A DNA stretch of 64,000 nt, taken from positions 1 to 64,000 of the forward strand of contig NZ_QXIL01000009.1 in NCBI RefSeq assembly GCF_004115745.1, given 5' to 3'. Below are positions 5,399 to 9,769 of the stretch, piece by piece. Each line of letters starts with the position of its first letter. Position 1 is the stretch's first letter. Source of the DNA: Levilactobacillus suantsaii. Its GTDB lineage: Bacteria; Bacillota; Bacilli; Lactobacillales; Lactobacillaceae. Both the position numbers and the translations under genes were made by a program. Below the pieces are notes generated by a model. The model made no database searches and was not told the DNA's origin. It saw only the letters and a program-made list of their open reading frames with translations.

Positions 5399-6463
5399 AT
5401 GGAAAAGCAACACTATTTAAAACTCATCGACGAAGAACTCGCCCAAGCGCCCTGGTTCGTCCAGGAATACTATCAGGCTAAATCGACGATTCCCCTGTCC
5501 CCGGCGACGTTGTATCAGTACCTGACCGAATTTCGGCGCTTCTTTAACTGGTTGATTAGCGAGGGCCTCACCACGGCGACGCAGCCGACCGAGATTTCCC
5601 TCGACCTATTGGCCCATTTGAAAAAGGAAACGGTGGAACTCTACAAGTCCGCCCTATTGAACCAAACAAAACTGACCGGTGCGCGGGGCAGTCGGTCTCA
5701 CCCCACTATCAACCGCTCGTTGAACGCGTTATCTTCGCTCTTCAAGTATCTGACCGAAGACACTGAAGATGAGCACGGTGAAGCCTACTTTGACCGTAAC
5801 GTGATGCATAAGATTGCGCTGGTACGGACAAATGAAACTTATGCCACCCGGGCGGCGAACCTCAAGACCAAGTTGATGCTGGGCAATACGGATCACGACT
5901 ACCTCGACTTCATCGATCATAAGTACGAACAAGGCCTGACACCGGCCCAACGGCGGTATTTTAAACGCGATAAGCGCCGGGACCTCGCCATCAACGCCCT
6001 CTTACTCGGCAGTGGCCTGCGGGTATCCGAAGCGGCCAACGCGGATTTGCGCCAATTGAACTTAAAGACCGCTACGATTGGGGTCGTGCGCAAAGGGGGC
6101 CAACGCGATACCGTGCCGATTGCCCCCTGGACCATGCCCTATATTCAGGCTTACGTTGAGCAACGTCCCACACTTTATCACGCAACGGCCAGTGACCGGG
6201 CCTTGTTTTTGACCATTTATCGCGGCCAGGCCTCCCGGATGCAGGCTAATTCCATCGAAAAAATGGTCGCCAAGTATTCGAGTGCCTTCAAAGTCCGCAT
6301 CACGCCCCATAAGTTGCGGCATACTTTGGCTTCAAAATTGTATCTGGCAACGAAGAATGAGCAATTAGTCGCCACCCAGCTGGGGCAAAACTCGACAACT
6401 GCAACGGGTTTATACACGCACATGATTGATGACGAACAACGTAAGGGATTGAAGAAACTTTAG
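5399..6463 (+). CDS. xerS: Tyrosine recombinase XerS
   Basis: A 354-residue single-protein Xer recombinase of the lactococcal/streptococcal XerS type. It resolves chromosome dimers at a dif site with FtsK. It has an N-terminal SAM-like core-binding domain (about 20-130) and a C-terminal catalytic domain. Visible catalytic residues are Arg (GSGLRVSEA), Lys (VRKGGQ), HxxR (HKLRHT) and the Tyr nucleophile (LYTHM). The position that is often His before the Tyr (LGH) is Gln here (LGQNS). An upstream TTG (5384) is open, but GGAGG at 5386-5390 is well placed for ATG 5399. A 15-base palindrome (TGTTTAATTTAAACA, 5297-5311) lies upstream; I could not assign a dif core. A decayed copy of the gene end lies at 8962-9066. 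Confidence 0.9.
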   Translation: MEKQHYLKLIDEELAQAPWFVQEYYQAKSTIPLSPATLYQYLTEFRRFFNWLISEGLTTATQPTEISLDLLAHLKKETVELYKSALLNQTKLTGARGSRSHPTINRSLNALSSLFKYLTEDTEDEHGEAYFDRNVMHKIALVRTNETYATRAANLKTKLMLGNTDHDYLDFIDHKYEQGLTPAQRRYFKRDKRRDLAINALLLGSGLRVSEAANADLRQLNLKTATIGVVRKGGQRDTVPIAPWTMPYIQAYVEQRPTLYHATASDRALFLTIYRGQASRMQANSIEKMVAKYSSAFKVRITPHKLRHTLASKLYLATKNEQLVATQLGQNSTTATGLYTHMIDDEQRKGLKKL

Positions 6464-6491
6464 GCGATACAGCGTTGTCTTCAGAAAAAAC

Positions 6492-6540
6492 AAACACCGC
6501 CCCTGCTGAAATTTACGCAAATTCAGCAGGGGCGGTGTTT
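6492..6540. terminator. Bidirectional terminator between xerS and the monooxygenase gene
   Basis: A 19-bp perfect stem (AAACACCGCCCCTGCTGAA and its complement) with an 11-base loop ends in TTT on both strands. It lies between the convergent genes xerS and the nitronate monooxygenase gene. Confidence 0.85.
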
Positions 6541-6602
6541 TCAGAAATAAGTTCACCTGATTTGTCCAAAATAAATTTAACTGAGCCTCAGTAACAACTC
6601 GC

Positions 6603-7562
6603 TTATGCCTCCATTAAGGATTGGATGAGGGTTTTAACCGGTAATACCTTTTTAAGCGTATCGACACCAGTATTCACACTCACGATACCCGTTTGAAAAT
6701 CCCCTTGAAGCATCCCCGGACGTACGCCCCCATTAACGCTGATTTGATGATCCAAATCGTTGTCTTTGGGCGTAGCCAGTTGGACTTGAGCATATTTTTT
6801 CGCTGGCCGTGTGTCCAGCGAACGTTGCGTGGGAGATACCCGAAAAAGGTTGTGGTGCGTTGCCGTCGCAACCATTTTTTTAGCCACGGGACTCATCGGC
6901 GACTCGGTCGTCATTAAGAAACGACTCCCAATGTAAACGCCCCGTGCACCCAAAGCAAGGGCCGCTTTAACACCGCGGCGATCATTGATGCCACCAGCAG
7001 CTAATACGGGGATGTTGACGGCATCGACCATGGTTGGAACAACGGTGAACGTTCCAAAATCTTGTTTCGGTAATACCCCGCCTTCGTCTGAGCCGGTGGC
7101 GACCGCGATATCTGCCCCGTAACGTTCCCCTAACTGCATTTGCGCAACTGTTGGTGTTAAGGGCCGAAAGATGATGATTCCCTGATGCGCTTTGATGAGT
7201 TGAAATAATTCTTGGTGGGCTGTACCGACTACAACGAAATATTTCACGCCCTCGGCAAAAGCGACCTTGAGGATTTCACGCGTATAAGTAGTATCGGCCA
7301 AGCTTTTACCGTCGTTTGGCGTTAAAATATTTAAGCCAAATGATTTTGAAGTGAGATTTTGGACCTGCTTGATTTCTGCCCGCATGCGTTCAGCCACTTC
7401 ATGCGGGTCTCTGGCATTCGTTTGCTGACCAGCGTTAGGGCCCAGGACACCTAAACCACCGGCATCGCTAACCGCAGCAACAAATTTAGCATTGGTCAAC
7501 CAAGACATTGGAGCTTGAATCAACGGGTACGTTGTTTGTAAGATTTTCGTAATGGGGTTCAT
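6603..7562 (-). CDS. Nitronate monooxygenase-type flavin oxidoreductase
   Basis: This 319-residue TIM-barrel flavoprotein belongs to the NMO/FabK/YrpB family. It shows the N-terminal LIQAPMSW start, GGLGVLGPNAG, the glycine-rich phosphate-binding stretch AAGGINDRRGVKAALALGARGVYIGSRF, and EGG in place of the family EAGGH. Members oxidise alkyl nitronates or act as FMN-dependent enoyl reductases. FabK genes normally sit in fatty-acid operons, which is not so here, so nitronate or quinone chemistry is more likely. AAGGAGG is 8 bases before the start. Its promoter carries an ATTTA-TATATCGC-TAAAT site (7579-7596) shared with the arginase-like and ArsR genes. Confidence 0.8.
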   Translation of the reverse strand: MNPITKILQTTYPLIQAPMSWLTNAKFVAAVSDAGGLGVLGPNAGQQTNARDPHEVAERMRAEIKQVQNLTSKSFGLNILTPNDGKSLADTTYTREILKVAFAEGVKYFVVVGTAHQELFQLIKAHQGIIIFRPLTPTVAQMQLGERYGADIAVATGSDEGGVLPKQDFGTFTVVPTMVDAVNIPVLAAGGINDRRGVKAALALGARGVYIGSRFLMTTESPMSPVAKKMVATATHHNLFRVSPTQRSLDTRPAKKYAQVQLATPKDNDLDHQISVNGGVRPGMLQGDFQTGIVSVNTGVDTLKKVLPVKTLIQSLMEA

Positions 7563-7578
7563 TTAGGTTCCTCCTTAG

Positions 7579-7596
7579 ATTTATATATCGCTAAAT
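7579..7596. promoter_or_regulatory. Operator-like site, monooxygenase gene
   Basis: ATTTATATATCGCTAAAT is an inverted repeat (ATTTA/TAAAT) around TATCG, just upstream of the ribosome site. It matches the arsR site ATTTACATATCGTAAAT and the arginase site ACTTAAGTATCGTTAAT. Binding of the ArsR protein is inferred. Confidence 0.5.
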
Positions 7597-7612
7597 ATGA
7601 ATATATTAGATG

Positions 7613-7641
7613 AAAAAATAAATGCCATCTGGCATTTATTT
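7613..7641 (-). terminator. Terminator after the arginase-like gene
   Basis: An 11-bp stem (AAATAAATGCC/GGCATTTATTT) with a 4-base loop runs into six T on the minus strand. It separates the arginase-like gene from the monooxygenase gene. Confidence 0.75.
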
Positions 7642-7649
7642 AGTCGTGT

Positions 7650-8504
7650 TTACTTAAAAATGGCTAGTTTTTGGAGTTCATTATGCAAATTAATGGCGTC
7701 CCACGGCATGTGTTCAGCAATCGATAGCCCAACTAGCTCGGCGTGGGCACTCACATCTTGGAGCACCCGGCTAACCGTTGCCAACTTCATCGACCCAATA
7801 GCTGCGCCAAATTTTTGTCGGTCTAACCCGGGCTCTGCCGGTAAAACAGACCGAAAATCGTCCGGGTCTAAGACGTCTAGGTCTAAGTGAAGGGCCACGT
7901 GCTTGATGCCGGCTGCCGTAAACCAGGCTAAGAGGCGATCACTAGTCGTTGCCAAGTCTGCGGGCGTGAGTACTGCCATCTGTAAATCAGAAACTAGATG
8001 GTCCATTGGGCGTAACGCTTGCGTTTGTAACCCGGCAAACAAGACTTGTTTAGGGGTAAATGGGTGTCGGACCTGCTGGTTAAATTTGGCCGCCCCTTTT
8101 TGCATCAAATTAGCTACGACCATTTCGTGAATATGGTGCGAAGTGTCCGGATCAGAGGCATCGGGATGCGCATCTAACCAGATGATACCCAAATCATCGG
8201 GATATTTGCCGTGCAGGTAATCAAAGGGCGCTTCCGAAATTGAACAATCGCCCCCGAGGGTGATGACTCGCTGGGGTTGTTTGATCCGTAACGTGTCAGC
8301 GGTCGTTTGCATTTGTCGTAACAGGCTTGTTTCACCGTCGATACGGTCATTATCGGTAACTGCCGTTTGATCGACCGGGATGTGCAAGGTTTCCGTTTGA
8401 GAACTTTCGGGTACCAAGGCCTCCAGAATTTTAGCTCCCATTTGATAATTAGCGTTCATCCCGCCCGGCCATTGTGGCAACACCAGACGCAAATTCTCCG
8501 TCAT
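7650..8504 (-). CDS. Arginase/ureohydrolase family protein
   Basis: A 284-residue member of the ureohydrolase fold. The manganese motifs are recognisable: GGDCS (GGDHS in arginases), WLDAHPDA (DAHxD), and LDLDVLDPDDF (SxDxDxxDP, Ser replaced by His). The Cys in motif 1 replaces a metal-ligand His, so arginase activity is not assured; the substrate may be another guanidino or amide compound. No arginine deiminase, ornithine or agmatine genes are nearby. The start is set by GGAGG 8 bases upstream. It has its own promoter with the shared TATCG operator-like site at 8537-8553, and terminators lie on both sides, so it is a one-gene unit within an ArsR-linked cassette. Confidence 0.8.
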   Translation of the reverse strand: MTENLRLVLPQWPGGMNANYQMGAKILEALVPESSQTETLHIPVDQTAVTDNDRIDGETSLLRQMQTTADTLRIKQPQRVITLGGDCSISEAPFDYLHGKYPDDLGIIWLDAHPDASDPDTSHHIHEMVVANLMQKGAAKFNQQVRHPFTPKQVLFAGLQTQALRPMDHLVSDLQMAVLTPADLATTSDRLLAWFTAAGIKHVALHLDLDVLDPDDFRSVLPAEPGLDRQKFGAAIGSMKLATVSRVLQDVSAHAELVGLSIAEHMPWDAINLHNELQKLAIFK

Positions 8505-8536
8505 ACTAAAGCCTCCATTTATATTTATAAATCGAA

Positions 8537-8553
8537 AATTAACGATACTTAAG
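8537..8553. promoter_or_regulatory. Operator-like site, arginase-like gene
   Basis: On the minus strand this reads ACTTAAGTATCGTTAAT, with inverted TTAA arms. It shares the TATCG core and flanks with the sites before the ArsR and monooxygenase genes. Confidence 0.45.
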
Positions 8554-8560
8554 TGGAAAT

Positions 8561-8583
8561 AAAAAGGAATTTCTTACAATTCC
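8561..8583 (-). terminator. Short terminator overlapping the arsR stop
   Basis: A GGAATT/AATTCC stem, with the stop codon at the start of the loop, is followed by TTTTT on the minus strand. The stem is weak (6 bp), but its position at the very end of the ArsR gene fits. Confidence 0.45.
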
Positions 8584-8894
8584 TCTGCCACGTACTGTGC
8601 TAACTCATGAATATGCTTGTCGTTCCGTCGGTAGTAGGTCCACTTCCCGTGCCGTTCCGAAATCAACAACCCACAGTTTTGCAAATCACTTAAGTATTTA
8701 GAAACAGTTGATTGGGCCAAACCGGCACGTTTAACGATGTCGGTCACACAAATTCCTCCCTTTTCCCGCATCATGAACCGTACAGTTTCACACGATACCG
8801 AAGTAATCTCCTTTTCTGGATTCTTGAGCCATTGTAGAATATCGAGCCGAGTCTGGTTAGATAGGACCGAAAACAACTTTGTATTAATTTCCAT
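8574..8894 (-). CDS. ArsR family repressor, probably leaderless
   Basis: A 106-residue winged-helix protein of ArsR/SmtB type: LSNQTRLDILQWL, then the recognition region GICVTDIVKRAGLAQSTVSKYLSDLQ, then the wing (SERHGKWTYYRR). Where metal-sensing ArsR has ELCVCDL, this has GICVTDI, so one of the paired cysteines is missing; three Cys (about 35, 49, 74) are present overall. A TATAAT box (8901-8906) ends only 6 bases before the ATG and there is no ribosome site, so the mRNA is probably leaderless. The operator-like repeat overlaps its -35 region, which suggests autorepression. It likely controls the two downstream enzyme genes. Confidence 0.8.
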   Translation of the reverse strand: MEINTKLFSVLSNQTRLDILQWLKNPEKEITSVSCETVRFMMREKGGICVTDIVKRAGLAQSTVSKYLSDLQNCGLLISERHGKWTYYRRNDKHIHELAQYVAEEL

Positions 8895-8900
8895 AGTTCT

Positions 8901-8930
8901 ATTATATTCATAATTTACGATATGTAAATA
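8901..8930 (-). promoter_or_regulatory. arsR promoter with operator-like repeat
   Basis: On the minus strand there is TTTACA (8928-8923), a 16-base spacer and TATAAT (8906-8901). A perfect inverted repeat ATTTAC-N5-GTAAAT (8913-8929) covers the -35 region and part of the spacer, a good position for a repressor. Confidence 0.6.
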
Positions 8931-8961
8931 GAATTATGGGAAAAATATAAAATTTATTGTC

Positions 8962-9066
8962 ATGCGAAGCCGCTTATTTTTGACCATTGATAAGTCTGCA
9001 GTTGAGCAATCATTGTACACGCACATGATTGATGACGAACAACGTAAGGGATTGAAGAAACTCTAA
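8962..9066 (+). pseudogene. Decayed fragment of a second xerS copy
   Basis: A 34-codon frame (ATG 8962, TAA 9064) reads RLFLTID.. then LYTHMIDDEQRKGLKKL, matching XerS around residue 270 and its last 17 residues, with the part between deleted. Bases 9016-9062 are identical to xerS 6413-6459 (47 of 47). The catalytic Tyr segment is kept but the rest of the recombinase is gone, so it is a remnant. A terminator follows at 9083-9122. It marks the right edge of the monooxygenase/arginase/ArsR cassette. Confidence 0.8.
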
Positions 9067-9122: not shown

Positions 9123-9143
9123 AATGAGCAGTTCTAACTTAAT

Positions 9144-9559
9144 TTAAATGATTGAATTTTCACCGATCGTAATTCCCGGCAGCACCGTCACACCGCTGCC
9201 AATCCAGACATTATCGCCAATATGAATCGTTTTATTAAATTGAAGCCCGTGACACCGGGTGAGAAGCCGTTGCAAAGGTACAGTTGGGACCAATCATCGT
9301 ATGATCACCAATAAAGATTTCCCCGTCATCCACAAATTTATTATCAAAATTAATAAAAACGTCCTTGCCAACGTGAACGTTGACCAAGCCAAAATTAGCG
9401 CAAATCGGTGGAAGAACGGACAGCCCGTCGGAATAAGTCCCAAGGGCGGCCCGAAGAAATGGGTCGCGCTGACGCAGACCGGACGTGGTCTCCGCAATTT
9501 AGTTAAATTCATTGATTCGCTGAACCCGCGTCCATATTGTCATAAAATTCGCCAGACAT
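9144..9559 (-). pseudogene. Sugar O-acetyltransferase (maa-like) remnant
   Basis: Minus-strand frames spell pieces of a maltose/galactoside acetyltransferase: MSGEFYDN at the start; then, after at least one shift, LRQRDPFLRAALGTY; then the left-handed beta-helix core VHVGKDVFINFDNKFVDDG, GDHTMIGPNCTFATASHPV. After another break comes the HIGDNVWIGSGVTVLPGITIGEN stretch, which stops early at TAA. It corresponds segment by segment to the intact gene at 59378-60037 but lacks its C-terminal end. It is clearly non-functional. Confidence 0.8.
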
Positions 9560-9769
9560 GACCTTTTTTTCATTGCATTGATTTTTCTTCGACACTCGTT
9601 TAATTATTAACTCCTCTTTACACTGCGCATGCACGTCAAGTAGCATGTGTTTATTTTTCATTACAAATATTATTATACCCACACGCTTTGATAATTAATA
9701 TTTAGGCTTTTTAACTCGGTGCTTCGCTTCACCGCCGGTCATACCCAACAATCGCGAACGTACTATTAA

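Follow-up and report, generated by a model that had tools for sequence, protein, structure and literature searches.

In a 64,000-nucleotide stretch of the Levilactobacillus suantsaii genome (contig NZ_QXIL01000009.1, positions 1 to 64,000; hereafter the window), three consecutive genes on the minus strand (6603–8894) encode an ArsR-family regulator, an arginase-family hydrolase and a protein of the nitronate monooxygenase (NMO)/FabK type. Each gene is preceded by a copy of one inverted-repeat operator, which is conserved in front of arsR homologs in related bacteria. It is reasonably likely that the three genes are the regulon of a single ArsR autorepressor that is switched by a cysteine in response to a non-metal signal, with an ene/quinone reductase and a ureohydrolase as its outputs. 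The observation of three genes with a shared operator, made in a first-pass annotation of this DNA, was confirmed.

In the proposed mechanism, an ArsR dimer would occupy the TATCG-N8-CGATA site over each promoter (for arsR, the spacer between the -35 and -10 hexamers), thereby blocking RNA polymerase. Modification of C49, which lies just before α3 of the DNA-reading head, by a reactive electrophile or oxidant would release ArsR. Three transcripts would then be made, encoding the repressor itself, an FMN-dependent ene-/quinone-type reductase with the FabK fold, and a ureohydrolase of the Mn type.

The operator and its linkage to arsR

The three sites proposed in the first-pass annotation were located at 7579–7596 (plus strand), 8537–8554 (minus) and 8912–8929 (minus). 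A pattern built from them and allowed at most one mismatch matched the window five times (the three sites, 8523–8540, which overlaps the arginase site, and 47094), against a mean of 0.47 and a maximum of 4 in 100 shuffles of the window; for the three sites themselves this comparison is circular. Across the full genome (2.43 Mb) a similar word was unspecific, with nine matches compared to five for the reversed control. The sites had been described as a TATCG core with ATTTA/TAAAT arms. Upstream regions of relatives bore out the shared operator and the TATCG element but not the arms, which reached at least 9/10 in just 9 of 54 aligned sites (three of these nine from the window; one arginase-family pick, in L209, is off register) and were rejected as the operator. 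The conserved unit is instead an 18-bp inverted repeat, TATCG-N8-CGATA, with constant arms TATCG and CGATA and a variable N8 spacer. The consensus of 28 non-window arsR sites is TTgACATATCG-N8-CGATATaAT, the operator sitting between the promoter hexamers, and that of 23 sites before the other genes is ATATCGA.Aa.T.tCGATATgTa.

In the window, the arsR operator (8905–8922, 8/10) occupies the spacer of the promoter TTTACA-16-TATAAT (8901–8928, minus strand, 11/12 match) and extends two bases into the -10 hexamer. The operators of the arginase-family gene (AATCG-N8-CGATA, 8530–8547) and of the NMO-like gene (TATCG-N8-GAATA, 7586–7603) match at 9/10 and 8/10, respectively. Each gene in this genome has its own promoter region with one operator, as had been proposed. 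The accompanying suggestion that terminators separate the genes held for the arginase/NMO-like boundary, where a bidirectional hairpin (7616–7641) lies in a strongly folding segment (7610–7648, z −6.2 relative to shuffles). It was less well borne out between arsR and the arginase-family gene, since the hairpin over the arsR stop codon (8563–8586, minus strand) is weak (z −2.26, 7 of 200 shuffles folding equally well) and was not among the terminators returned by the terminator scan. The NMO-like gene is separated from xerS by a strong terminator (6492–6540; z −8.5 for 6474–6545).

In the 32 non-window ArsR loci, 28 arsR genes were preceded by a site of at least 8/10, compared to only 16 of 373 other genes from these loci. 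Among all labelled genes such a site was present at 50 of 72, as against 6.8% of dinucleotide-shuffled upstream sequences, and at the stricter level of at least 9/10 the counts were 41/72 versus 8/373 (upstream stretches under 120 bases excluded; L059 and L062 had no called gene). The operator proposed for this DNA is therefore conserved in orthologous promoters, in the refined form given above. By gene class, the site at 8/10 or better preceded seven of nine old yellow enzyme (OYE) genes and 8 of 13 arginase-family genes. Probable targets also occur among the "other" genes that have a site: short-chain dehydrogenase genes beside arsR in three genomes (G046, G073 and G173; one Pfam-checked) and a like-sized gene in G006 carried 9/10 or 10/10 sites. 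Among genome contigs, arginase-family loci had the site in five of seven cases with ArsR and in none of 27 without, bearing in mind that some loci end near the gene and an ArsR just beyond could be missed.

ArsR homologs (E ≤1e-10) were present in 24 of 397 genomes of the family Lactobacillaceae. Around arsR in these 24 (window included) were arginase-family genes in 14, NMO-like genes in 10, SnoaL genes in eight and an OYE gene in one. The scan for the same three genes that had been called for found arsR, arginase-family and NMO-like genes together in nine of the 24, in several orders; a short arginase-family ORF in G154 (222 aa) and an NMO-like gene split into two ORFs in G295 were counted. 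The orders seen were arsR-arginase-NMO, arsR-NMO-arginase, arsR-SnoaL-NMO-arginase (G243) and arsR-NMO-SnoaL (G102), with arsR and the arginase-family gene divergent in G352 and G295. At the genome level, an arginase-family gene occurred in 15 of the 24 ArsR-bearing genomes and in 22 of the 373 others (Fisher p 1.3e-11, treating two genome draws as the same set since their handles agree), a p-value that overstates the case because the loci share descent. In one genome (G234) both genes were present but unlinked. An OYE gene adjoined the ArsR homolog in 9 of 33 loci (two Pfam-checked), eight of them in the nine genomes of the order that lie outside the family. None of the 33 loci had both an NMO-like and an OYE gene, a pattern that would fit the replacement of one enzyme by the other and is partly explained by descent.

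Relatives of ArsR were also found in 188 of 72,556 plasmid records, with 37.6–49.5% identity among the 40 matches listed. Of nine plasmid arsR neighborhoods, seven had genes for OYE, LLM flavin oxidoreductase, zinc-dependent alcohol dehydrogenase (Zn-ADH) or NTF2-family proteins nearby: OYE/alkene reductase in P. aeruginosa, Komagataeibacter, Pantoea and, about 2 kb off, Rhodococcus; LLM oxidoreductases in Priestia, Peribacillus and P. aeruginosa; Zn-ADH in Polaromonas and P. aeruginosa; and an NTF2-family gene in Priestia. The Rhizobium and Staphylococcus plasmids had no annotated enzyme directly after arsR in their gene tables, which are incomplete. A site of at least 8/10 lay before arsR or the first enzyme of the run in seven of the nine loci. 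In front of arsR it matched at 10/10 in Polaromonas and Rhizobium, at 9/10 in Peribacillus and Staphylococcus and at 8/10 in Komagataeibacter; in Priestia it preceded the first LLM gene (9/10), and in P. aeruginosa the alkene reductase gene (8/10). In Rhodococcus and Pantoea neither position had one. The 8/10 cases are weak, because each 8-kb stretch has a few such matches elsewhere. Some Bacillales and Proteobacteria plasmids thus carry the operator. Four further regions were arginase-family matches, whose neighbors include genes for NADH:flavin oxidoreductase, Zn-ADH, LLM and FMN reductase and for LysR/AraC/TetR regulators; the neighbors in an L. intestinalis arginase-family region were uninformative.

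Two further sites were recorded. A perfect TATCG-N8-CGATA lies in a fragment from the same genus (L122:12564), which has no labelled ArsR or arginase-family homolog. The word TATCGAACCGGTTCGATA in C. nantensis (L041:6859) was put aside as an operator, as it resembles an SOS box.

The regulator and the two enzymes

The regulator gene (8574–8894, minus strand) encodes a 106-residue winged-helix protein of the ArsR family (PF01022, 37.9 bits against a cut-off of 22). In its AlphaFold model, which is of medium confidence (pLDDT 68.7) and contains the winged helix, C49 lies just before the helix formed by residues 50–57. C49 was invariant in 16 of 16 aligned homologs, as were G83, K84, T86, Y88, R89 and R90. 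It aligns with the first cysteine of the SmtB metal box, the second cysteine of which was absent in all 16 and replaced by T, A, Q, G or S. The first-pass annotation had correctly read GICVTDI in place of the ELCVCDL of metal sensors. The protein lacks the CxC metal box of a classical ArsR/SmtB metalloregulator, which supports the non-metal signal that had been suggested.

Persulfide sensors of the SqrR/BigR/HlyU group are described as having a cysteine pair in α2 and α5 (PMC10509353, available text). This pair was not found: the window ArsR has no cysteine after residue 74, C-terminal helix included, and there was none in the last 15 alignment columns of the 16 homologs. HlyU and SqrR-type chains matched from column 49 onward, as judged from match extents. 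A vicinal cysteine pair, as in the peroxide sensor RexT, was likewise absent from the window protein. According to the accessible parts of two papers, members of the RexT cluster are encoded close to NADH oxidoreductase genes (PMC10509353), and one of them, CyeR, controls an OYE via a cysteine equivalent to RexT Cys41 (PMC8960804). The invariant C49, the lack of a persulfide pair and this literature together favor thiol modification by oxidants or electrophiles. The window ArsR is best read as resembling CyeR and PyeR, a non-metal repressor that probably acts through a thiol and controls the detoxification of electrophiles or oxidants.

The NMO-like gene (6603–7562, minus strand) encodes a 319-residue protein with the FMN-dependent FabK/NMO fold (Pfam NMO PF03060, E 2.3e-69). 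It was nearest FabK by both sequence and fold (Foldseek E 3e-22 to FabK 7L00; model pLDDT 71.8), but scored only 169.9 bits against the FabK equivalog TIGR03151 (cut-off 453.1) and is not assigned to FabK. The histidine of the GGH motif is catalytic in nitronate monooxygenase. It is present in the five reference chains listed (four FabK-named, one putative nitroalkane dioxygenase), whereas valine or isoleucine stood at this position in 11 of 11 aligned NMO-like proteins, valine in the window protein (proteins above 280 aa, identical pairs counted once and L126 with its split gene excluded). The enzyme had been called a nitronate oxidase, a name that the lost histidine and the proximity to FabK argue against. 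A nitro-compound pathway was also considered and is disfavored, since this histidine is missing and no nitro-related gene was recognized among the neighbors, most of which are unidentified. The neighbors in relatives point to carbonyl, alkene or quinone-type reductases. FabK is a flavin ene-reductase, and by analogy our guess is that the NMO-like protein is an ene- or quinone-reductase.

The arginase-family gene (7650–8504, minus strand; Pfam PF00491) encodes a 284-residue hydrolase of the GGDCS type, in which all six metal ligands (C87, D111, H113, D115, D208 and D210) are kept. The motif-1 ligand cysteine was present in 49 of 52 aligned family sequences (proteins above 220 aa), and the six ligands with cysteine in motif 1 place the window protein in the GGDC-type arginase family. 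Its nearest solved structure is 6KSY, the Z. mobilis arginase zmARG, with a nearly whole-length match (E 4e-57); against the rocF_arginase equivalog it scored 41 bits, well below the cut-off of 227.6. Model searches of the genome found one arginase-family gene and one OTC-type gene over cut-off, and found neither arcA nor the urease alpha subunit. As arcA, of the arginine deiminase (ADI) route, was not found, the arginase-family protein may be relevant to arginine metabolism. Handling of a nitro or guanidino compound had been proposed for this locus; with six ligands kept a guanidino substrate is plausible, whereas no pointer to a nitro compound was seen. In three loci of the same genus (L036, L037 and L038), arginase-family proteins lack the Cys and Asp ligands (GGGSV, GxHPD) and may be non-catalytic.

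Alternatively, ArsR might sense a small aromatic, nitro or guanidino ligand that is the substrate of both enzymes, with C49 playing a structural role. The intact arginase-family metal site fits this explanation, as does the possible route for arginine or another guanidino compound that a single arginase-family gene would offer in a genome where arcA and urease alpha were not found. However, homologous ArsR proteins have mainly varied oxidoreductases as neighbors, the NMO-type histidine is missing, and 10 of the 24 family loci have no arginase-family gene near arsR, so that we consider this ligand-sensing alternative rather unlikely.

Alternatives and the origin of the module

Several observations count against the Cys-switched regulon proposed here, beyond the shared descent behind the linkage p-value. 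None of the three operators in the window is perfect (8, 9 and 8 of 10), and in the genome TATCG-N8-CGATA occurs exactly only once, elsewhere (C5:43712). At one mismatch there are 34 matching places, the arginase site being one, and at up to two mismatches 645, compared to 422 for the reversed control; genome-wide the site is thus not distinctive, and by itself it does not define a regulon in this genome. At the called start, a site was missing from four of the 32 arsR genes (L127, L138, L131 and L134), of which L134 has one within an over-long ORF and L131 has one before its OYE gene. Site counts were low for NMO-like (4/10) and SnoaL (3/8) genes, classes that include operon-internal genes, such as the NMO-like genes of L050 and L051, which come straight after an arginase-family gene. 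In the regulator, residues D92-x-H94 resemble half of an α5 metal site, and R61, T68 and N77 of RexT would fall on S69, L76 and W85 (ungapped C41-to-C49 alignment, RexT taken from its published description), so that RexT's peroxide chemistry is probably absent. Finally, nothing found explains a ureohydrolase in such a regulon.

The operator words, not being rare genome-wide, would also be expected if the three promoters were alike merely through AT-richness, with no common regulator. Conservation across genera and beyond the family, together with the dependence on ArsR linkage, makes such chance likeness extremely improbable. Metal detoxification under a classical ArsR/SmtB metalloregulator would account for the D-x-H residues and for the NCBIfam HTH_metalloreg score (70 bits, cut-off 55), but that model is broad, the CxC is broken, D-x-H is not kept in the 16 aligned relatives, and no metal transporter was recognized among labelled or Pfam-checked neighbors (most neighbors being unidentified). 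A metalloregulator is thus very unlikely.

A Companilactobacillus-like donor is the probable source of the module. The arginase-family gene shares 73, 70 and 67% identity with Companilactobacillus genes that likewise adjoin ArsR, and is only 53–55% identical to Levilactobacillus genes, which follow a MerR gene with no ArsR nearby (L043:7207–8855, Pfam-checked; also L045, L046 and L048). A tree of 23 rows, lacking L041, L042, L043 and others as identical-sequence rows, grouped it with C. halodurans (100/100). The G+C content of the module (46.2%) is low but not extreme, 17 of 246 window stretches being equal or lower.

A 53-bp repeat flanks the module (6410–6462, at the 3' end of xerS, and 9013–9065; the core 6413–6459 is exact at 9016–9062), and a mobile cassette between att-like repeats was considered. 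The copy at 9013–9065 is better read as part of the remnant of a second xerS 3' end (8940–9066), which keeps the last codons in frame and a further 12-base match, and there was no integrase gene between the repeats. The sequence after xerS differed in all 14 relatives listed, and in a further comparison no relative aligned past the repeat, so that an empty site could not be defined. The region has been rearranged, because the gene at 462–1229 lies upstream of xerS here and downstream of it in L119 and L120. By eye, this gene is tex-like, and 9130–9600 (minus strand) holds a broken acetyltransferase-like gene with pieces in different frames.

Comparison with known systems

For many ArsR proteins that lack a metal site, no signal is known. 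A scannable operator, a single invariant cysteine and a short target list make one such group directly testable, and give a regulatory context to GGDC arginase-family and His-less NMO/FabK-fold proteins, for which the names "arginase" and "nitronate monooxygenase" may mislead in lactobacilli. More speculatively, and with small odds of being right as a whole, a widespread ArsR subfamily with one operator, TTGACATATCG-N8-CGATATAAT (present in Lactobacillales and on Bacillales and Proteobacteria plasmids), could be a general one-cysteine electrophile sensor. Its output in Lactobacillaceae would include a Cys-ligand ureohydrolase for the repair or removal of arginine damaged by carbonyls (e.g. methylglyoxal/glyoxal guanidine adducts), alongside a His-less FabK-fold ene-reductase that replaces OYE.

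Among the enzymes, zmARG hydrolyzes arginine with Mn, belongs to the genes overexpressed under ethanol and has the same Cys-ligand metal site (GGDC, DxHPD, DLDVLDP) (PMC6988801). The window gene differs in its predicted ArsR control, none being mentioned for zmARG in the available part of that paper. FabK enoyl-ACP reductases share the FMN barrel fold with the NMO-like protein, which differs from them in lacking the GGH histidine and in falling far under the FabK equivalog cut-off.

Among the regulators, RexT of Nostoc has the ArsR fold and a redox cysteine in α3 (PMC8960804, available text), as predicted here, but the window ArsR lacks its vicinal cysteine pair and, at ungapped positions, its Arg61, Thr68 and Asn77. 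PyeR of P. aeruginosa is an ArsR autorepressor of a reductase operon, pyeRM-xenB, with a link to oxidant stress, the deletion of this operon making cells sensitive to HOCl (PMC7950407, available text). The window regulon, by contrast, has no MFS gene. The PyeR operator is palindromic. CyeR of Corynebacterium glutamicum is likewise a non-metal ArsR with an oxidoreductase target, the OYE cye1, and a key cysteine reported to be equivalent to RexT Cys41 (PMC8960804). Distant homologs of the window ArsR adjoin OYE genes as well, whereas the window targets are a FabK/NMO-fold enzyme and an arginase-family hydrolase (plus SnoaL in relatives). An invariant C49, oxidoreductase neighbors and a site in its own promoter would fit the key α3 cysteine, flavin-reductase target and autoregulation of the CyeR/PyeR type, the three known regulators being compared from their published descriptions.

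No published account of this regulon was seen among the titles and abstract starts of the matches listed, and the ArsR regulons described in the accessible part of PMC3616900 differ from it. For such a switch, an arginase-like enzyme is an unusual target. The sensor class, a non-metal ArsR with reductase targets, is known; the operator and the target set appear to be new.

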